Shown here: positions 6,353 through 26,444 of the stretch, piece by piece
Numbering within the stretch: position 1 is the first letter of the stretch
Layout: the number at the start of each line of letters is the position of its first letter
Source: Fimbriimonadaceae bacterium
GTDB taxonomy: Bacteria > Armatimonadota > Fimbriimonadia > Fimbriimonadales > Fimbriimonadaceae
Reading direction: 5' to 3'
DNA length: 64,000 nucleotides
Assembly: GCA_019454125.1 (NCBI GenBank)
Contig: CP075365.1
Coordinates: 1,916,218 to 1,980,217, forward strand
Program-made: the position numbers and the translations under genes
The notes under the pieces: generated by a model
What the model was told of the DNA's origin: nothing
Seen by the model: only the letters and a program-made list of their open reading frames with translations
Databases searched by the model: none

Positions 6353-7699
6353 ATGGAAAAGGTCATACGGAGTCTGTTTACGTCGGTCGCCCTCTTAACG
6401 ATTTCCGCCGCGTCGCCTTCCCAGACGAGCCCTCGACAGGCTCCCGCCAGCGTCCTTTTCACGGACGTCCGCGTCTTCGACGGCAAGGCCGACCGCCTTA
6501 GCGGGCCGACGAACGTTCTGGTCGTCGGCAACAAGATCGCGAGCATCGGCGCAGGCGCGGGACCGGGCGACGGCACCGTCGTGATCGCGGGAGCGGGCAA
6601 GACCCTGATGCCAGGCCTGATCGACGCCCACGTCCACATGATGTTCTCCATGGTGCCACAGATGGCGCTGGCTACGACCGACCTCGCTTATGCCGGCATC
6701 GCCGCGGCGCAGGGGTCCGAGGAGATGCTCATGCGCGGCTTCACGAGCGTGCGGGACTTGGGCGGCCCGGTCTTTGGACTGAAGAAGGCGATCGACCAAG
6801 GCTTGGCTATCGGACCCCGGATCTACCCCTCTGGCGCGTTCATCTCTCAGACTGGCGGGCACGGGGACTTCCGCTTGCCAGTCGAGATGCCCGCGGAAAC
6901 GGGCGTCATGAGCTATGCGGAACGGGTCGGCGCCACCGCGATCGCCGACGACGAAGGCACCGTCCGGAAGCGCGCCCGGGAGTTGCTCGCCCTCGGGGCT
7001 TCGCAACTCAAAGTGATGGCGGGCGGAGGCGTGTCCTCGAACTATGACCCGCTCGATGTGACTCAGTACACCGAGGCTGAACTGAGGGCGGCGGTCGAAG
7101 CGGCTGAGAACTGGGGCACATACGTGACGGTGCACGCATACACCCCTAGGTCGGTGAGGCAGGCGATCGCCGCCGGCGTGAAGTGCATCGACCACGGGCA
7201 ACTGCTCGACGAGCCGACTGTCAAGCTCATGGCCGAGAAGGGCGTCTGGTGGAGCTTGCAACCGTTCACGGACGACCGGCCGAGCGGCTTTGCCGAGGGA
7301 TCGGAAAACCGGAGGAAACAACTTGAGGTCGCAACGGGGACCGACGCGGCCTACCGGCTTGCCAAGAAGCACGGGGTCAAAACGGCCTGGGGCACGGACA
7401 ACCTCTTCAGCGCGGTCAACTCCCGGCTCCAGAGCAACATGCTCGCGCAGATGACGCGCTGGTTCACGCCAGCCGAGACCCTGCGAATGGCCACGTCGGT
7501 CAATGCCGAGCTCCTCGCCCTGTCAGGACCGCGCAATCCCTACCCCGGCAAGCTGGGCGTCGTCGAAGAGGGCGCGCTGGCCGACCTGATCCTTGTGGAC
7601 GGCGACCCGCTCGCTAACTTTGACCTGGTCAAAGACCCGGCCAAGAACTTCATCGTGATCATGAAGGATGGCCGGATCTTCAAGAATGCGCTGCGCTGA
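6353..7699 (+). CDS. Exported metal-dependent amidohydrolase (imidazolonepropionase-like)
   Basis: A 448-residue amidohydrolase-superfamily enzyme with a signal peptide (1 to about 22) ending near SAASPS. Metal-site motifs in order: DAHVHM (the HxH pair, about residue 93), QLKVMAGGGV (candidate metal-bridging Lys, about 221), TVHAYT (His, about 259), CIDHGQ (His, about 281) and AWGTDN (Asp, about 345). This is the subtype III binuclear arrangement seen in Xaa-Pro and other secreted dipeptidases and in imidazolonepropionase-like hydrolases. The substrate cannot be read; a periplasmic peptide or amide is likely. The stop is 21 bases from the convergent Ntn-hydrolase stop. Confidence 0.88.
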   Translation: MEKVIRSLFTSVALLTISAASPSQTSPRQAPASVLFTDVRVFDGKADRLSGPTNVLVVGNKIASIGAGAGPGDGTVVIAGAGKTLMPGLIDAHVHMMFSMVPQMALATTDLAYAGIAAAQGSEEMLMRGFTSVRDLGGPVFGLKKAIDQGLAIGPRIYPSGAFISQTGGHGDFRLPVEMPAETGVMSYAERVGATAIADDEGTVRKRARELLALGASQLKVMAGGGVSSNYDPLDVTQYTEAELRAAVEAAENWGTYVTVHAYTPRSVRQAIAAGVKCIDHGQLLDEPTVKLMAEKGVWWSLQPFTDDRPSGFAEGSENRRKQLEVATGTDAAYRLAKKHGVKTAWGTDNLFSAVNSRLQSNMLAQMTRWFTPAETLRMATSVNAELLALSGPRNPYPGKLGVVEEGALADLILVDGDPLANFDLVKDPAKNFIVIMKDGRIFKNALR

Positions 7700-7720
7700 A
7701 GTGGCTCACTCGATGGCAGC

Positions 7721-8764
7721 TTAGTCCACAAGGCCCGCGAACACGAACGGCTTCGTCTCGCGGAACTCCGTAGTGACCTCTCCCGACAGCGTGTAGTTGG
7801 CGCCAAGGAGGATGCGGCGGTGCGGGGTGCCGGGTTTAAGGTCCAGCTTCTTGAGATCGACCCACACCGTGCTTGGCGAGAAGGCCGACTCGAAGTAATA
7901 GATTAGGTTCTTCTGGTCGGACACGACGCGCCATTGGGTGGTGCTGAGATTGATCGTGCCCGTGACGCCGACAGGCACGGAGCAGTTGCGTACAACGCTC
8001 AGGGTCATCGCCGCGCCAAGCCTCGGATCGGCGGTCTTGGGCAGGACGCCGAGGTAGTAAGAGGCACGCGCGAACCGGTCGGTCGCCCGGCTCGTGCCGG
8101 GGAGCATGGCCTTCCCGTCCACTTCCTTCCAATACTGCGCAATGGCCAGCTGGTCGGCGTAGTCCGGCTCGTTCGTCATGACCACGTAATCTGGGTCATG
8201 GTGGATGGTGAGCTTGCCGTTGACGTACTCCAGGATCGCATTGTCCCCGGAAGAGTCGGAGAGCGAAAGGTGGACCGTTGTGATGCGTTGAGTCCCTGGA
8301 ATCTCTGCGGTCACAACGTCGAAGTCGCCTTTGCGGAGGGCATCGACCGCCTCTTTGACCGTCGCAAAGTTGTCAAGGGCATATTGGGCCCAGAGCGAGA
8401 CAGCGAGCCCTTTCCTCTTCTGGTCGAAGTCGGGAAACTCGGATGTCGCCAGCCAAAGAATGTTTCCGACGAGGCCCTTCTCATTCATGCCGTCGGTTGT
8501 GGCGAACTCGAAGGAACTCAGGACGACGCTGCCGTACTTGGACTTCCAGCGAAGGGAGTTCGGTCCGACCCGCCCCTCGCGTTCGACGCCTGCCGGCATG
8601 AGCCAGAGGTTGGCCGGAATGTCGTCGCGAAAATCCATCGAGCGACCGGTGAGGACGAGGCCGTCCGCACCCTTGTAAACGAGACGCGTGCACGCGTCTC
8701 CGTTCAACGGAGCGATGGCAAAGCCGATGGCGAGAAGAAGCGAAAGCTGAACGTGTTGTTTCAT
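7721..8764 (-). CDS. Exported linear amide C-N hydrolase, choloylglycine hydrolase family
   Basis: A 347-residue N-terminal-nucleophile hydrolase related to penicillin V acylase and bile-salt hydrolase. The signal peptide ends GDA and the next residue is Cys25 (CTRLVYKG), which becomes the free N-terminal nucleophile after cleavage. The family's Arg/Asp motif follows as TGRSMDF. A long central domain contains TNEPDYADQL, the usual substrate-loop region. It cleaves linear amide bonds; the natural substrate (N-acyl homoserine lactone, penicillin V, conjugated amide) cannot be chosen from sequence. ATG at 8764 is preferred over an in-frame ATG 14 codons upstream because it places the signal peptide correctly. 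A GGAGG lies 13 bases upstream, in the end of the barrel gene. Confidence 0.85.
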   Translation of the reverse strand: MKQHVQLSLLLAIGFAIAPLNGDACTRLVYKGADGLVLTGRSMDFRDDIPANLWLMPAGVEREGRVGPNSLRWKSKYGSVVLSSFEFATTDGMNEKGLVGNILWLATSEFPDFDQKRKGLAVSLWAQYALDNFATVKEAVDALRKGDFDVVTAEIPGTQRITTVHLSLSDSSGDNAILEYVNGKLTIHHDPDYVVMTNEPDYADQLAIAQYWKEVDGKAMLPGTSRATDRFARASYYLGVLPKTADPRLGAAMTLSVVRNCSVPVGVTGTINLSTTQWRVVSDQKNLIYYFESAFSPSTVWVDLKKLDLKPGTPHRRILLGANYTLSGEVTTEFRETKPFVFAGLVD

Positions 8765-18786: not shown

Positions 18787-18853
18787 TCATGCCTCGGCAC
18801 GCCCCGTGCCGAGGCTATTTTCATGCCTCGGCACGCCCCGTGCCGAGGCTATT
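18787..18853. repeat. Two tandem copies of a 33-bp REP-like palindrome
   Basis: Copies at 18787-18819 and 18821-18853 (period 34). Each reads TCATGCCTCGGCACG, a three-base loop CCC, then CGTGCCGAGGCTATT, so GCCTCGGCACG pairs with CGTGCCGAGGC over 11 bp. The copies are identical. The ends TCAT and TATT are conserved in most copies of the family. Confidence 0.9.
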
Positions 18854-18950: not shown

Positions 18951-19004
18951 TCATGCCTCGGCACGCCCCGTGCCGAGGCTATTCTTTCATGCCTCGGCAC
19001 GCCC
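18951..19004. repeat. REP-like palindrome: one full copy plus a half copy
   Basis: The full copy is 18951-18983. A second starts at 18987 (TCATGCCTCGGCACGCCC), but after 19004 the right arm is replaced by TGTATGGTG, so it is a broken element. The intervening sequence is TTT. No coding sequence is credible between 18666 and 19415 apart from these repeats. Confidence 0.85.
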
Positions 19005-19293: not shown

Positions 19294-19326
19294 TCATGCC
19301 TCGGCACGCCCCGTGCCGAGGCTATT
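19294..19326. repeat. REP-like palindrome, last left-hand copy
   Basis: Full 33-bp copy identical to those at 18787 and 18951, standing 90 bases before the first aldehyde dehydrogenase fragment. Confidence 0.88.
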
Positions 19327-19415: not shown

Positions 19416-19790
19416 GTGGTCACGCCCTCCGGGCAGGCCCTCGCGTTTGACCAGTTTAGCCTCGGCACCGTGCCCCGCACGCCCAAGGAGCAGGTGGACG
19501 CGGCCGTCGCCGCCCACGAGGCGTTCCTCACCTGGCGCGAGCAGAGCTGGGTCAAGCGCGGCGAGGTCATCGACGAGCTCGCCCAGCTCATCAAGCGCGA
19601 CGTCGAGAGCCTGAGCCGCATGGTCACCATCGAGTGCGGAAAGCCCATCAACGAGGGCCGCGCCGACGTGGTCGAGGCGCTGCACATGGCCCAGTACGTG
19701 GCCGGCCTCAGCCGCCTGCCCTATGACCACGTCATCAGCAGCCAGATCGCCGCCAAGGACGCCTACACCGTCCGCAAGCGATCAATCTAG
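19416..19790 (+). pseudogene. Aldehyde dehydrogenase 5' fragment, copy A
   Basis: From about 19465 the translation (GTVPRTPKEQVDAAVAAHEA onwards, through VTIECGKPINEGRADVVEAL, to KDAYTVRK) matches residues about 40-150 of the aldehyde dehydrogenase at 24528-26043. The first 16 or so codons (MVTPSGQALAFDQF) are unrelated to that gene, and the frame stops right after VRK with RSI and TAG. The catalytic Cys and Glu and most of the cofactor site are missing, so it is not an enzyme. It is an open 124-codon frame with few differences, so recent duplication is likely. Its end overlaps the stop of the converging gene by 9 bases. Confidence 0.85.
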
Positions 19791-20573
19791 AGTGGCCAAG
19801 AACTGTTCGTCGACGAACCACTTACCGTTTACGGCAAAAATGGGCTCTTGAAGAGCTTTCGAGTTCTTCCCGACCTTGGCTGACGCTGCTCCGAGCGGCA
19901 AGACGACTTGGCCGACACGACTGTCAATTGTCGCGAGCCCAGACGCGTGGTTTTGATTAACAGGCAGCCGACTCGCGCGCGCCCATTCGACGAGGTCGAG
20001 GCACGGACGCCCGCCAGGCCCCTCGTAACGCTCGACTTTTTCGCCGTGCACGATTCTATCTACTCCTTTGGTCGCTGTCCTCCCGGTCAAGCCTCCGATA
20101 ACGGCTCGAGCCAAGCCTTCGACGAGCTCGCGGTCGGCCGCTTGATCGGAGGCGACGACTGTAAACCCATCTTGCCCCTTTACCCTCCGGTAACTCATAA
20201 AGCAGCTGACCATTTGCCCCTGGGAACGCCAGTGGACGCTGGCCTCGGAGTCTTGATTGAACGCCGCTTCGCCCGTGATTGGATGTCCGCTAATGAACGT
20301 TGCTTTCTGGCCCCGAACACCCGCTCCGATCATAAGGCTCCAATGTGTGTCGGACACCCTTTTGCCATTCGAGAGGTCATAGACCCGTAAGGTTATTTTC
20401 GCGTCGTCTGAACCTCGCCTCCAAGATATGGAGAACGGTTGTTCATCTCCCACGAAGCTCTCTTCGTGGAACCCCTTCAACCTGAGCGGAACTAGCGCCG
20501 AATAGCTGCGCAGGTCTTCTGTCGATATGGCCGACACTGAAATTAAGGCAGCAAGTGTTATGTAGGCAAGCAT
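19782..20573 (-). CDS. Exported protein of a duplicated two-gene unit, copy 1 (X1)
   Basis: A 263-residue protein with an N-terminal signal peptide (MLAYITLAALISVSA). No family is certain. The C-terminal 55 residues (VGQVVLPLGAASAKVG, then EPIFAVNGKWFVDEQFLATL) are almost identical to copy 2 at 22360-23151. They have the look of a copper-amine-oxidase-N-terminal-like beta module, a weak resemblance. The middle is only about half identical between copies. Its ATG is 1 base from the stop of the transglutaminase-like gene upstream, so the pair is an operon. Base composition is clearly less GC-rich than the flanks. Probably secreted with its partner. Confidence 0.7.
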   Translation of the reverse strand: MLAYITLAALISVSAISTEDLRSYSALVPLRLKGFHEESFVGDEQPFSISWRRGSDDAKITLRVYDLSNGKRVSDTHWSLMIGAGVRGQKATFISGHPITGEAAFNQDSEASVHWRSQGQMVSCFMSYRRVKGQDGFTVVASDQAADRELVEGLARAVIGGLTGRTATKGVDRIVHGEKVERYEGPGGRPCLDLVEWARASRLPVNQNHASGLATIDSRVGQVVLPLGAASAKVGKNSKALQEPIFAVNGKWFVDEQFLATLD

Positions 20574-20574
20574 T

Positions 20575-21795
20575 TTATCTTAGCACCTGGATTCGCGCTG
20601 TCGTGGTTGTCCGGGCCACGGTCTCACCTTGAGTTCCACCAGACCCAAAGTATTTATTAACTAAGCCAACGAACGACGATCCTTGGCTCGTTGGTGGACT
20701 GATCGGCTTCTGCCAATAGGAACTATTGGACGGGGTTTGAGGCCAGGACATTGGCGGATTTCGATAATTTGCCCCGTCAAGGCTGAACAGTTGTGCGGCC
20801 GCTGCGTCAAATGCTAAATCGCCTACGACGTTGTGTTGGTGGAAGTTAAAGTCGTATACCTGATAATACGTCAAGAGGGTAGCGTCTCGTCCTGTCCCGC
20901 AAAGCCAGTTCGTCCAAAAACCTACGTTGGGATCAGCCCTTTCCTGAATAGCGAGAAGGGGAACTCCTAAACTGCTAGTGCAGATCTGCAGGTAAAAAGA
21001 GATGTCTTGACAATCACCACTTACAATGAAATTGTAAGGCGTGCGCTCGGCAAAGAGCTGGGTTAGATTGTATCGGTAGGACACTGGGCCTTCATCGGCC
21101 ACAGACGTCACTTCTGAGAATCGAGGAGTACTGTAGTCATAGAAAAAAATGGGATAAAGACCGGGATCACAATGGTACCAGAACAAATAGTATGTGCACT
21201 TGTTCCTTACGTTTGATGCGCCTGCGAAGCCAGTTGCAAACCGGCATGCGTCTTCTAAGACGTTCGTCCAAACCGGCAACTGTCGCCCATACGGCGAGCC
21301 GAGCGGCTTGGCGTCAGTCAGGTAGAGCCTTGTCCCAGCATTGCCAGCTAGGCCGGTGACGGTTGACTGGCAGGAGAACGGGAGGATGAAATCGCCAAGC
21401 GTCACGAAATCAGGGATGCCGCTGAGAGCGAACTCGACCGTCGCCTGTCCGCCTGGCGTGAAGTGCACGTTGAACGTCGACGGCGACGCCATAACCGTGA
21501 AAGTGCCACTAGCCGTGTGGTACGTGCAAGGGTCGATCGTTACGACGGCGTCGTGCTCGGTCGGCCCCGTGTACCCGAAAGTCATCTTCACTGTCTTACC
21601 GCTGCTCCCCCGTATCCAGGAAACGGCTGGCGCACCGCCAATGCCTTCGTGCGCCGGGTACTCAGCCGGAAACAGCCCGGCAGAGGTCAAGCGTTCACTC
21701 GCAAGATAATCGACCAGGAGCAACTCGTACGGAGGCACCTCCCCCCCCCCGCAAGCATAGCGGTAAGGCCCGCTACAGCATTTAGAGCCGCCCAA
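20575..21795 (-). CDS. Transglutaminase-like protein of the duplicated unit, copy 1 (Y1)
   Basis: A 406-residue frame from a TTG at 21795. The N-terminal half is beta-rich (Ig-like), followed by VWTNVLEDACRFATG. The C-terminal half holds a candidate Cys-His-Asp triad: SGDCQDISFYLQI (Cys), FNFHQHNVVGD (His) and LAFDAAAAQL (Asp). All three are conserved in copy 2 (NGDCQDVSFYLQI, FNFHQHN, TYDAACAQV), although the surrounding sequence has diverged. This is the transglutaminase/NlpC-like order, so a secreted cysteine acyltransferase or peptidase is plausible. The better ATG (21800, giving MTWAALNAVAGLTAMLA) is out of frame by the ten-G tract at 21741-21750, so the true N-terminus is uncertain. Confidence 0.65.
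   Translation of the reverse strand: MGGSKCCSGPYRYACGGGEVPPYELLLVDYLASERLTSAGLFPAEYPAHEGIGGAPAVSWIRGSSGKTVKMTFGYTGPTEHDAVVTIDPCTYHTASGTFTVMASPSTFNVHFTPGGQATVEFALSGIPDFVTLGDFILPFSCQSTVTGLAGNAGTRLYLTDAKPLGSPYGRQLPVWTNVLEDACRFATGFAGASNVRNKCTYYLFWYHCDPGLYPIFFYDYSTPRFSEVTSVADEGPVSYRYNLTQLFAERTPYNFIVSGDCQDISFYLQICTSSLGVPLLAIQERADPNVGFWTNWLCGTGRDATLLTYYQVYDFNFHQHNVVGDLAFDAAAAQLFSLDGANYRNPPMSWPQTPSNSSYWQKPISPPTSQGSSFVGLVNKYFGSGGTQGETVARTTTTARIQVLR
21741..21750 (-). repeat. Ten-base homopolymer G tract at the start of Y1
   Basis: Ten consecutive C on the plus strand (G in the gene). The ATG at 21800 is joined to the main frame only if the tract has 8 or 11 G; with 10, only the TTG at 21795 gives the long protein. 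The corresponding tract in copy 2 has 4 G. It could be a phase-variable contingency tract or a homopolymer miscount. Confidence 0.6.
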
Positions 21796-21921
21796 GTCAT
21801 GTAACTAGTATAAGGCACATTTTGGCGATGCGGGACTAAATGCCCAACAGAAGACCACGAACCCCGGACCCGCTCCCTTGCACCCTAAAGCGTACAATCA
21901 AACTCAGGACAAGCAAGAGAC

Positions 21922-22362
21922 ATGAGCGCGACATTGATCCATCCCAACGAGACCGGCGTGCAGGTGCGCGCCCTCATCAACAACGAGTGGGTGACGGCCA
22001 GCGAGACCTTCCAGAGCCTCAACCCCGCCAACCGTGAGCACATCGTCGGCACCGTGCCCCGCACCCCAAGGAACAGGTGGACGCCGCCGTCGCCGCCGCC
22101 CACGAGGCCTTCCTCACCTGGCGCGAGCAGAGCTGGGTCAAGCGCGGCGAGGTCATCGACGAGCTCGCCCAGCTGATCAAGCGCGACGTCGAGAGCCTGA
22201 GCCGCATGGTCACCATCGAGTGCGGCAAACCGATCAACGAGGGCCGCGCCGACGTGGTCGAGGCGCTGCACATGGCCCAGTACGTGGCCGGCCTCAGCCG
22301 CCTGCCCTACGGCCACGTGATCAGCAGCGAGATCGCGCCTACGTCGTGCGAAAGGCGAGCTA
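21922..22362 (+). pseudogene. Aldehyde dehydrogenase 5' fragment, copy B
   Basis: Begins with the authentic ALDH start (MSATLIHPNETGVQVRALIN). Around 22066 one C is missing from CGCACCCCCAAGG, shifting the frame; the match then continues from VDAAVAAAHEAFLTWREQSW to AYVVRK and ends AS, TAG at 22360-22362. A 10-base deletion lies near 22337. It stops at the same ALDH codon as copy A (after VRK) and is likewise followed directly by the 3' end of an X gene. Catalytic half absent. Sequence upstream of the start (21800-21921) is shared with copy C, so its promoter region was duplicated too. Confidence 0.85.
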
Positions 22363-23151
22363 GTTCAGCGTCGCCAAGAACTGTTCGTCGACGAACCACT
22401 TGCCGTTTACGGCAAAGATCGGCTCACGAAGCGTCTGGAGTTTGTTGCCGACCTTCGCGGAGGCGGCTCCAAGCGGAAAGACGACGTGGCCAACACGGCT
22501 GTCAAGCGCTGCAATGCCCGAGACATGGTTTCGACGCAAGACTAAGCGACGAGCATTCGCCCACCCTTCGAGGTCAAGACAAGGAAACCCCGCCGGGCCG
22601 TCGTAGCATTCGACGGTTGCGCCATTGATCGCACGATCCGCTCCCTTCTTCGCGTCTCGACCCGTTAGGCAACCGATCACCGCTCTGGCCACACCTTCAA
22701 CGAGTAAGGCATCGGTAACGGAGTCATCGGAAAGATGAGTCCATTTTCCACGCGAACCTCCGACTCGGTAACGCATTTTAGCGCTAACAAGTAGCTCTCC
22801 AAGTCGCCAGTGAACGGCCGGGACTTGACTTGAGTTAAAGGCGCCTTCGCCTACTACCGCATGCCCACTGAGAAGCGATTTTTTACCGGGCGCTGTTGAA
22901 GCCCCGATCACGCTCACCCAGAACTGATGGTCAACTTCCTGACCCTCTAGCTCGTATACGCTGAGTAACAGCTCTGCCGAATCAGAGGGCCTTTGCCAGA
23001 CAATCCTGGCAGGATTGACTCCAGATTGGCGAGAAACTTTGTACCCGTGTTCGGTGAGCGGCACCGACTTAACGAAGTGGAGCACATCGCCTGTTTGCAC
23101 GTCTGCGTTAGCAGTTTTGACAGACAGTATGAGAAGCAAGCTACTGAGCAT
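22360..23151 (-). CDS. Exported protein of the duplicated unit, copy 2 (X2)
   Basis: A 263-residue protein, exactly the length of copy 1 if the ATG at 23151 is used (a TTG at 23163 adds four residues). Signal peptide MLSSLLLILSVKTANA. The middle has diverged strongly from copy 1, but the following are shared: LVEGVARAVIG, LTGRDAKKGADR, PCLDLEGWA, and the nearly identical C-terminus ending NGKWFVDEQFLATLN. Two Cys (IGCLTG, FPCLDL) flank a conserved EGxARAVIGxLTG helix. It starts close to the Y2 stop, the same order as copy 1. Function unknown; secreted. Confidence 0.7.
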   Translation of the reverse strand: MLSSLLLILSVKTANADVQTGDVLHFVKSVPLTEHGYKVSRQSGVNPARIVWQRPSDSAELLLSVYELEGQEVDHQFWVSVIGASTAPGKKSLLSGHAVVGEGAFNSSQVPAVHWRLGELLVSAKMRYRVGGSRGKWTHLSDDSVTDALLVEGVARAVIGCLTGRDAKKGADRAINGATVECYDGPAGFPCLDLEGWANARRLVLRRNHVSGIAALDSRVGHVVFPLGAASAKVGNKLQTLREPIFAVNGKWFVDEQFLATLN

Positions 23152-23155
23152 GATG

Positions 23156-24404
23156 TTATTCAATGGTCAAAAGTTGACCTTGTTTGAGTGAACGCTGGAC
23201 AATCTCACCCTGAGGATTTTGGGAAAGAACGTAACTGAAAGTAAGGCCGCGATGTAGTGGCCCGATTGGAGGTATCGGAACGACTTCCGTTTGCCAATAA
23301 GAGTGTTGCGGAGGTGTCTCAAGGGGCCAAGCGATCGGCGGATTGTAATAGTTGTTGCCCACTAGATCTATTACTTGCGCACATGCGGCATCGTACGTGT
23401 CGTTGTCAAAGCTGTTATGCTGGTGGAAGTTAAATCCAAAAGACGTATAGTTACCAGGCAATGTCGCGTCGTTGCCAACCCCGCACAGGGGATTCGTTTG
23501 GAATGCCAGGGCTTGAATCGGATAACCCGGAGCAACGGGGAATTCCCTTATCGCCTTGAGTGGAACCCCAAGGGCACTTGTGGCAATCTGAAGGTAAAAG
23601 CTAACGTCTTGGCAGTCGCCGTTGACATAGAAATTGTTGGGCGTGCGACCAGCGAAGAACTCGGTCAAGTAGAATTTAAAATAATGAGCTGCAGCGTTTG
23701 GCCCCTGGGTACGTTCACACCAGTAAGGCTTATCTGGGTCATACACGAAGATAGGATAGTGCCACGGTTCTAAGGGGTCTTCATGGAACCAGAATAGATT
23801 GTAGGTGCAGCGGGCCCTAACGCTCGTTGCACCCGCATAACCCGTTGCAAAGCGGCACGCGTCCTCCAATACGTTTGTCCAAACCGGCAGCTGCCGCCCA
23901 TACGGCGAGCCGAGCGGCTTGGCGTCGGTCAGATAGAGCCTGGTGCCAGCGTTTCCTGCAAGGCCCGTGACGATGGACTGGCAAGAGAACGGGAGGCTGA
24001 AATTGCCAAGCGTCACGAAATCCGGGATTCCACTGAGTGAAAACTGCACGGTCGCCTGCCCGCCAGGCGTGAAGTGCACGTTGAACGTCGACGGCGACGC
24101 TGTAACCGTGAAAGTGCCACTAGCCGTGTGGTACGTGCAAGGGTCGATCGTTACGACGGCGTCGTGCTCGGTGGCCCCGTGCCGAAAGTCATCTTCACTG
24201 TCTTACGCGCTGCTCCCCGTATCAGAGAAACTGGCGGCGCACCGCCAGCCTTCGTGCGCCGGGTACTCAGCCGGAAACAACCCCGGCAGAGGTCAAGCGT
24301 TCACTCGCAAGATAATCGACCAGGAGCACACTCATTGCAGGCACCTCCCCGCAAGCATAGCGGTAAGGCCCGCTACAATTCTCATTTAGAGCCGCCCAAG
24401 TCAT
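23156..24404 (-). pseudogene. Transglutaminase-like protein of the duplicated unit, copy 2 (Y2), 5' part frameshifted as sequenced
   Basis: An uninterrupted 307-codon frame (24079-23156) covers everything from HFTPGGQATVQFSLSG to the stop, with the Cys-His-Asp residues intact (NGDCQDVSF, FNFHQHN, TYDAACAQV). Upstream of about 24168 the DNA still matches copy 1 but with an insertion or deletion every 10-20 bases, so the first 100 or so codons are out of frame. ATG at 24404 corresponds to the ATG at 21800 of copy 1. Either the gene is decaying from its 5' end, or the base calls are wrong in this stretch; in the latter case it is a full gene of about 410 residues. Confidence 0.6.
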
Positions 24405-24527
24405 GTAACTAGTATAAAGGCACATTTTGGCGATGCGGGACTAAATGCCCAACAGAAGACCACGAACCCCAGATACGCTCCCTTGCACCCTAAAGCGTAC
24501 AATCACACTCCAGGACAAGCAAGAGAC

Positions 24528-26043
24528 ATGAGCGCGACATTGATCCATCCCAACGAGACCGGCGTGCAGGTGCGCGCCCTCATCAACAACGAGTGGGTGA
24601 CAGCGAGACCTTCCAGAGCCTCAACCCCGCCAACCGTGAGCACATCGTCGGCACCGTGCCCCGCACCCCCAAGGAACAGGTGGACGCCGCCGTCGCCGCC
24701 GCCCCACAGGCCTTCCTCACCTGGCGCGAGTGGAGCTGGGTCAAGCGCGGCGAGGTCATCGACGGCTCGCCCAGCTCATCAAGCGCGCGACGTCGAGCCT
24801 GAGCCGCATGGTCACCCATCGAGTGCGGAAAGCCCATCAACGAGGGCCGCGCCGACGGTCGGGCGCTGCATGGCCGTCGTGGCCGGCCTCAGCCGCCTGC
24901 CCCTATGGCCACGTCATCAGCAGCGAGATCGCCGCCAAGGACGCCTACATCGTCCGCAAGCCCAAGGGCGTGGTCGGCGTCATCACCCCCTGGAACTTCC
25001 CCTTCGCCATCCCGCTCTGGGGCATCCTGCCGGCCGTGCTGGCGGGCAACACCGTCGTCTTCAAGCCCAGCGAGGAGACCCCCGTCGTCGCCCACCGCCT
25101 GGCCGAGCTCTTCCTTGAGGCGGGCTTCCCGAAGGGCGTCATCAACGTCGTCCACGGCTTCGGTGAGGAGACCGGTGCGGCGCTGGTCGGCAACCCGAAG
25201 GTCGACGTGATGGTCTTCACCGGCAGCCGCGCCGTGGGCAAGCACATCCAGCGCGAGGCCGCCGCCCAGGAGACGCATAAGTTCGTCGCCACCGAGCTCG
25301 GCGGCAAGAACGCGGTCATGGTGCTCGAGGACGCGAACCTCGACATCGCTGTCAACGCCTGCCTCCTCAGCGCCTTCAAGACCAGCGGCCAGCGCTGCGT
25401 CTCCTCGAACCGCCTCATCGTCGACCGCAAGCTCATCGACCCCTTCACCGAGCAGTTCCTGGACAAGGTCAAGCGGATCAAGGTCGGCGACGGCCTCGAA
25501 GAGGACACCTTCATGGGCCCGCTCATCAACCCCGACGGCGTCACGAAGTGGAAGCACCACAACGAGAAGGCGCGCGAGGAAGGCGGCGAGATCCTGCACG
25601 AAGGCAAGGAGATCACCGAGGGCCCGCTGGCCAACGGCAACTTTGTCGAGCCGTTCGTGTACCGGTTCCGGGAGTACAAGGAGGGGACGTACTGCCTGCG
25701 TGAAGAGGCCTTCAGCCCCCACACCTGCATCATCGGCGTCGACGGGCTCGAAGAGGCGGTGCGGGTCTATAACGACACCGACTATGGGTTGGCGATGGCC
25801 GTCATCACCGAGGACTACCGCAAGTGGCGCTGGGTGCGCGACCACGCCGATTTCGGCCTCGGCTACGTCAACCTGCCCAGCATCGGCGCCGAAGTCCACC
25901 TGCCCTTCGGCGGCGTGAAGAACTCCGGCAACGGCCACCCCGCCGCCGAGACCGCCCTCGACTACCTCACCCACCGCGTCGCCTTCACCGTCAACCATGC
26001 CGAAGAGATCGTCATGGCCCAGGGCCTCAGCACGAAGGTCTAA
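24528..26043 (+). CDS. NAD(P)-dependent aldehyde dehydrogenase, copy C (catalytic half intact, 5' third frameshifted as sequenced)
   Basis: Starts MSATLIHPNETGVQVRALIN like copy B. From 24905 to the stop the frame is perfect and typical of the ALDH superfamily: ITPWNFPFAIPLWGILPAVL, KPSEETP, FTGSRAVGKHI (Rossmann loop), ATELGGKNAV (catalytic Glu), SGQRCVSSNR (catalytic Cys), EEAFSPHT, PFGGVKNSGNGHPAAETALD. The last motif recalls ALDH7/aminoadipate-semialdehyde-type enzymes, so an amino-acid-derived semialdehyde is a possible substrate. Between about 24597 and 24905 many single-base and short indels relative to copies A and B break the frame. Full length would be about 505 residues. Confidence 0.75.
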
Positions 26044-26315: not shown

Positions 26316-26347
26316 AATAGCCTCGGCACGGGGCGTGGCGAGGCATT
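26316..26347. repeat. REP-like palindrome, inverted copy
   Basis: AATAGCCTCGGCACG, GGG, then CGTGGCGAGGCATT: the reverse complement of the left-hand copies, apart from one base in the right arm and a shortened end. Confidence 0.8.
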
Positions 26348-26412: not shown

Positions 26413-26444
26413 TCATGCCTCGACACGCCACGTGTCGAGGCTAT
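26413..26444. repeat. REP-like palindrome with compensatory changes
   Basis: TCATGCCTCGACACG, CCA, CGTGTCGAGGCTAT. Relative to the consensus, G to A in the left arm is matched by C to T in the right arm, so pairing is kept. A more degenerate relative is at 26488-26509 (CTCGGCA ... TGCCGAG). Confidence 0.8.

Follow-up and report, generated by a model that had tools for sequence, protein, structure and literature searches.

A putative exported enzyme–immunity cassette of Armatimonadota with a mosaic inner block

What is the role of two neighbouring gene pairs of the same build, each encoding an exported protein with a Cys-His-Asp triad (Y) and an exported partner of its own (X)? The pairs lie at positions 19782-24404 of a 64,000-nucleotide stretch (the window) from a Fimbriimonadaceae bacterium whose assembly is a single contig of 2.65 Mb, 97% complete; both are on the minus strand, with Y upstream of X in each. 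The initial annotation had described neighbouring pairs in the same order, an exported two-gene system in which a transglutaminase-like enzyme is joined by a dedicated partner, and had found no named family for the pair. Coordinates, order and strand were confirmed, the system as described is supported by our analysis, and no Pfam, NCBIfam or PADLOC family covers the whole of Y or the whole of X. The extent of the unit and the nature of the partner had to be revised: the repeat also includes fragments of an aldehyde dehydrogenase (ALDH) gene, the C-terminus of X is a copper amine oxidase N1 stalk and the inner part of the module is a mosaic; the fragments and the mosaic had been missed. Since this inner module is mosaic and hypervariable, the likely function is no longer that of an enzyme with a helper but that of an enzyme with a cognate immunity protein or inhibitor. 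From the sequence comparisons given below, we hold at about an even chance that Y-X is a cassette of a Sec-exported cysteine enzyme and of the cognate immunity (inhibitor) protein, located in the periplasm or at the cell surface, and is diversified by cassette exchange. The four genes are as follows.

19782-20573, minus strand: X1, exported partner; signal peptide, Mog1/PsbP/Tsi3-like domain and C-terminal stalk domain (approximately residues 190-263); hidden Markov model match E 5e-59, fold by homology to X2
20575-21800, minus strand: Y1, exported transglutaminase-like protein; immunoglobulin (Ig)-like N-domain and catalytic C-domain with C262/H319/D330 (numbering of the open reading frame (ORF) 20575-21795); true start ATG at 21800
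22360-23163, minus strand: X2, exported partner; same architecture as X1; model with a predicted local distance difference test score (pLDDT) of 81.6
23156-24404, minus strand: Y2; 23156-24079 open, 24080-24404 (signal peptide and Ig-like domain) broken by small indels

The two proteins and their domains

The triad of Y is invariant wherever it is present in an alignment of 59 sequences (Cys 57/57, His 54/54, Asp 54/54), and both window copies keep the motifs GDCQD, FNFHQH and (F/Y)DAA, as had been noted before. Thirteen members of the family gave no Pfam match at E up to 1 and no NCBIfam match either. The catalytic half was compared, profile to profile, with 29 genuine PF01841 transglutaminase domains of related genomes. 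A 38-row alignment of Y scored 27.2, with the Cys, the His and the Asp each aligned to its counterpart; the 59-row alignment scored 31.7 (P 3e-4, Prob 38%), the aligned stretch spanning the Cys half only. Among the controls for the latter comparison, the best of 100 column shuffles scored 18.8 and NlpC/P60 scored 17.9, so that the similarity to PF01841 is above the controls yet weak in absolute terms. Because the scores exceed those of both controls, Y is called transglutaminase-like here, and it appears to be distantly similar to transglutaminases, in line with the initial proposal. It shares with PF01841 the order Cys-His-Asp, a Cys at the start of a helix and a GDC-type motif, and differs in the lack of a Pfam match for any member, in its own Ig-like N-domain and in the partner X. 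NlpC/P60 was rejected as the family of Y on its weaker profile score (17.9-19.7) and a Cys out of register, and the LapG-type peptidase C93 (PF06035) because Y has no Pfam match and PF06035 is absent from the 291 Armatimonadota genomes searched. In the structural model of Y the N-domain is a confident Ig-like sandwich (pLDDT mostly >80), while most of the catalytic half stays below a pLDDT of 50 (about 30-50). The Ig-like structural matches of the N-domain, among them the barrels of transglutaminase 2 and factor XIII, are of a generic kind, and no conclusion was based on them.

Both proteins appear to be exported. Among full-length proteins, 23 of 29 Y and 35 of 45 X begin with a hydrophobic segment, against 1/29 and 4/45 for internal control segments, and many of the proteins that lack such an N-terminus have an uncertain start codon. 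The signal peptides assigned to X in the initial annotation are upheld, and Y carries an export signal too; in Y1 this signal, MTWAALNAVAGLTAMLAGGG, precedes EVPPYELL and is out of frame through a one-base slip in a run of ten C at 21741-21750.

X is composed of two domains. Residues 194-267 of X2 form a copper amine oxidase stalk (Z 10.5, root mean square deviation (rmsd) 1.7 over 74 residues to domain D1 of E. coli amine oxidase), and PF07833 (copper amine oxidase N1) matched 5 of 10 X members with a best E of 4.7e-7; X1 alone gave E 0.013, which does not pass the cut-off. The likeness to PF07833 is confined to the C-terminal 74 residues of X, where the stalk is joined to a Mog1-like domain and not to an amine oxidase catalytic domain. 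For residues 23-170 of X2 the nearest folds are Tsi3 (Z 7.9), Mog1p (7.2), LpqN (6.9) and PsbP (6.7), a consistent group with Z of 6.3-7.9, all below 8. Tsi3 confers immunity against a type VI effector, and Mog1p and PsbP have been listed among its structural neighbours (PMC3792639). Kinase-like Foldseek matches of X were discarded as spurious (rmsd 8-20 Å). The tails of X1 and X2 had been called nearly identical in their last 55 residues, which is true of the very end (21 of the last 24 residues) but not beyond it (41/54 over the last 54).

The mosaic of constant ends and diverged inner block

Taken over the whole family, the catalytic domain of Y is better conserved than the N-domain (N minus C identity -0.057 on average, standard deviation 0.110, 950 pairs). 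Seven lineages reverse this trend, with N-domains 87-99% identical and catalytic domains only 23-64% identical, and no pair was found in which the catalytic domain is conserved and the N-domain diverged. The identities of Y in these lineages (N-domain / catalytic domain) are:

Window: 0.92/0.48
G153: 0.90/0.55
G142: 0.93/0.57
Genus of G183/G184/G180: up to 0.99 with 0.23-0.38
G089/G090: 0.97/0.63
G211: 0.89/0.64
G038: 0.87/0.46

The same outline is seen in synonymous divergence (dS), which is 0-0.6 over most of the Y N-domain, mostly saturated in the catalytic domain and saturated in the first half of X, and which falls back to low values at the C-terminal end of X in G153, G142, G089/G090 and G211, with a less sharp drop in the window. 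The C-terminal end of X is in places 90-100% identical, as the Y N-domain is, and the inner part, composed of the Y catalytic domain and the X N-domain, is contiguous. Within a single operon dS climbs from nearly zero to saturation, for which selection at the protein level alone is insufficient; recombination must act. The sequences show that the Y catalytic domain and the X N-domain are exchanged as one block between constant outer ends.

In the comparison of G090 with G089 one locus can be followed in sister species: dS is 0.03-0.07 over Y residues 1-200, the X C-terminus and the downstream flank are 91% identical, and the block between Y residue 200 and the X C-terminus has been replaced. 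Between G184 and G180 the flanks are 80-84% identical over approximately 5 kb on each side and the cassettes between them are largely non-alignable; between G184 and G183, which are different genomes, dS of the Y N-domain is mostly 0. The three copies in G153 have in common only about 90 bp upstream, the N-part of Y and the C-part of X with 5-50 bp beyond it, their flanks being unrelated.

A mosaic of this kind might also arise without adaptation, if the ends of old paralogues were homogenised by gene conversion and their middles, too diverged to convert, drifted apart. Several of the comparisons indeed involve paralogues of one genome, and in the window pair the identity declines gradually from the ends to the middle. 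The pattern is, however, also found between species at one syntenic locus (G090/G089) and between genomes (G184/G183), it recurs in several families, and the triad is under purifying selection within the diverged halves; we regard this explanation as quite improbable.

Pairing, surplus partner genes and the likely function

A profile search found Y in 37 and X in 50 of the 291 Armatimonadota genomes. X-Y pairs, for which the initial annotation had suggested a search, do occur elsewhere in the phylum: X directly follows 31 of the 35 distinct Y genes with downstream sequence, and stop and start codons often overlap. The spacing is -105 to +51 nt in 28 of these 31 pairs; the other three overlap more, which probably reflects a mis-set start of X. 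Each of the remaining four Y genes is followed by an unrecognised ORF of 198-232 amino acids. A single divergent Y-like protein came from G291, a genome that belongs to another collection, and 43 other genomes of the phylum of G291 have no Y. In several genomes the GC content at third codon positions (GC3) of Y and X is below that of nearby genes.

The two genes are not equally prone to accumulate. X outnumbers Y at 10 loci (arranged as Y-X-X, X-Y-X, X-X or X alone), and extra Y genes are not common. Adjoining X copies in G156 and G003 resemble each other at the C-terminal end and have diverged in the N-domain. At the site of the G146 pair, G011 has lost Y and kept X between flanks that are 91-92% identical; the two X proteins are about 90% identical over the last ~200 residues and changed in the first ~70.

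The observed pair, with its mosaic and its surplus of X, has by analogy the anatomy of an effector–immunity system, namely a constant delivery part, variable effector and cognate parts, and orphan immunity genes. The pair, the triad, the domains of X, the mosaic and the surplus of X are observed; enzymatic activity of Y, inhibition by X, and antagonism with its delivery and target are what we infer, and the preferred reading may be spelled out as follows. Y would be exported, its Ig-like N-domain serving delivery or localisation, and the Cys-His-Asp domain would act on the envelope of neighbouring cells by cleaving or modifying a protein or peptide there. X would use its Mog1/Tsi3-like domain to bind and block the cognate catalytic domain, and its stalk domain as an anchor. 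Homologous recombination in the constant ends would let strains swap the contiguous 3' half of Y and 5' half of X and so diversify, and displaced X genes would stay behind as orphan immunity genes.

Alternatively, Y may be a secreted protease or transamidase without an antagonistic role, processing the surface of its own cell, X being its dedicated inhibitor, chaperone or anchor, and the inner domains may co-diversify under the pressure of phages, predators or substrates. Transglutaminase-like enzymes such as LapG process surface proteins and offer an analogy, and the export of both proteins, the invariant triad and the dedicated partner agree with such a role. Yet the neighbours of the loci include no common third gene that could be the substrate, the LapG family PF06035 is missing from the phylum's genomes as stated above, and the surplus of X, together with the syntenic loss of Y with X kept, fits immunity better. 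An own-surface enzyme appears rather unlikely to us.

Several observations weigh against an enzyme–immunity cassette. The Y-X neighbours vary by locus and look unrelated, with no linked delivery machinery among them. No match of Y-X was obtained in plasmid, phage or viral contig collections, on which ground plasmid or phage cargo was rejected, and none in PADLOC, on which ground a known defence system was rejected as well. The Tsi3 likeness of X is at the level of the fold only and is tied with several non-immunity proteins, and a Z below 8 can reflect a common arrangement. Finally, apart from one short fragment and two marginal matches, a profile search with the Y N-domain led only to places where Y was already known; this domain was never found joined to another catalytic fold, unlike the delivery parts of classical polymorphic toxins. 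In E-group colicins and their immunity proteins, too, one catalytic fold is used, with a constant delivery part, a hypervariable catalytic domain and an adjacent immunity gene. Because its N-domain was never found with another catalytic fold, Y-X appears to be closer to these colicins, in which one fold changes its specificity. The E-group colicins are plasmid-borne nucleases with cytoplasmic immunity, whereas Y-X is chromosomal and its partner is exported.

Two further systems are comparable with the proposed cassette. Myxobacterial SitA/SitI combines a signal-sequence toxin of constant N-terminus and variable C-terminus with a downstream cognate gene, in several divergent cassettes per genome (PMC5562445). 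Y-X shares all of these traits: the export signal, the constant N- and variable C-terminus, the downstream cognate gene and the multiple divergent cassettes in one genome. The Sit toxins differ in being lipoproteins with unrelated nuclease-type C-domains that are delivered by outer-membrane exchange; the C-domain of Y is always transglutaminase-like, and the variable block includes the 5' half of the partner gene. In the type VI arrays of V. cholerae effector modules are replaced by recombination and the old immunity genes are left as orphan arrays (PMC5361080). Module replacement and leftover orphan immunity genes are common to both systems, but none of the type VI genes was seen beside Y-X and Y has a signal peptide of its own.

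With somewhat less than an even chance, Y-X would represent a class of Sec-exported enzymes not described before, antagonistic or kin-discriminating in function and with a scattered distribution in Armatimonadota, with a transglutaminase-like fold, Mog1/stalk-type immunity and an exchange unit that straddles two genes between constant outer domains. Armatimonadota are poorly studied, and our literature search found no paper linking them to a transglutaminase-like protein; if the reading is true, Y-X would be their own diversifying antagonism system, in which a single catalytic fold changes specificity by swapping a block across two genes. The co-evolution of enzyme and immunity would then be directly testable, since many natural alleles have their constant ends in common and sister species differ in the inner block at one and the same site. 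Should Y-X be no toxin system, it is still an uncharacterised family of secreted enzymes, as predicted here, with a dedicated partner and strong recombination-driven diversification.

Some single loci deserve mention. In G183 (L185, G183:C1:72000-85000) a transposase-like frame, recognised by eye at 7071-8759, runs into the 5' end of Y beside a tandem Y-X-Y-X-X array, which suggests that insertion sequences may help to move cassettes. An isolated fragment of the Y N-domain with no catalytic domain (G153:C13:472865-473089, a 112-amino-acid open frame) is possibly the relic of a fourth cassette in G153. In two genera, X lies convergent to the same neighbour gene (79% DNA identity; G008, L017 4154, and G132, L104 4422), possibly through a shared insertion site or vertical inheritance.

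The repeat in the window and its surroundings

In the window, self-comparison defines a repeat unit of 2.6 kb in which the Y-X pair is accompanied by the divergent intergenic region and by ~420 bp from the start of the ALDH gene; the unit includes long blocks of 95-98% identity, far beyond chance. The parts of the array outside Y and X are:

19478-19779, plus strand: ALDH 5' fragment 1, without the gene start and joined to X1 at its 3' end; shares 95% identity with fragment 2 over 252 bp (three-copy alignment)
21801-21921, no strand: divergent intergenic region that separates Y1 from ALDH fragment 2; identity to 24405-24527 is 96-98%
21922-22345, plus strand: ALDH 5' fragment 2, start codon present; meets the 3' end of X2 in the ALDH codon region where fragment 1 meets X1
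24405-24527, no strand: divergent intergenic region between Y2 and the ALDH gene (self-comparison, three-copy alignment)
24528-26043, plus strand: ALDH gene; C-terminal 374 codons intact and 84% identical to G001 of the same genus, first ~370 bp with several small indels

The most similar coding part of the window pair is the N-terminus of Y1 and Y2, with 93-97% DNA identity over most of 21473-21712. The lower GC content of the region, already noticed in the initial annotation, was confirmed (0.52-0.61 versus ~0.65 in the flanks) and extends to GC3, which is 0.58-0.62 in the Y and X genes and 0.83-0.95 in the flanking genes. ALDH fragments 1 and 2 differ by 8 synonymous and 4 nonsynonymous changes (ratio of nonsynonymous to synonymous divergence, dN/dS, 0.13); as the differences are mostly synonymous, the fragments probably descend from functional alleles and have not drifted apart as pseudogenes. 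Under the cassette reading the window would hold two alleles in tandem upstream of the ALDH gene, and each allele would have captured a fragment from the 5' end of this gene. The ALDH orthologue in G001 and in G008 sits elsewhere, with no Y-X beside it, so that the neighbourhood is lineage-specific and an ancestral linkage of Y-X to the aldehyde dehydrogenase is unsupported.

In comparison with the other copies, small indels are dense over 24180-24900, where they break the N-terminus of Y2 and the 5' end of the ALDH gene, and further slips are found near 22068 and 22330. Since the ALDH gene is otherwise intact, with 84% identity to the orthologue in G001, these indels are probably consensus errors; genuine decay over 24180-24900 is possible. 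They also bear on whether the tandem is an assembly chimera of two strain alleles and no real double locus, as might be argued from this indel-rich stretch with the ALDH 5' end in it, from the slips here and at 21741-21750, and from ALDH fragments that differ mainly at synonymous sites, as alleles would. The fragment-to-X junctions, however, fall in the same ALDH codon region in both units, and tandem or multi-copy Y-X arrays are also present in G183, G184 and G211. A chimera, which we consider most improbable, would moreover account for the arrangement in the window only and not for the family-wide pattern.

The regions just outside both ends of the Y-X/ALDH array contain a 25-bp near-perfect palindrome, GCCTCGGCACGCCCCGTGCCGAGGC, which occurs six times in the window (18791-18815, 18825-18849, 18955-18979, 19298-19322, 26320-26344 and 26417-26441) and is confined to these regions, the number expected by chance being 0.

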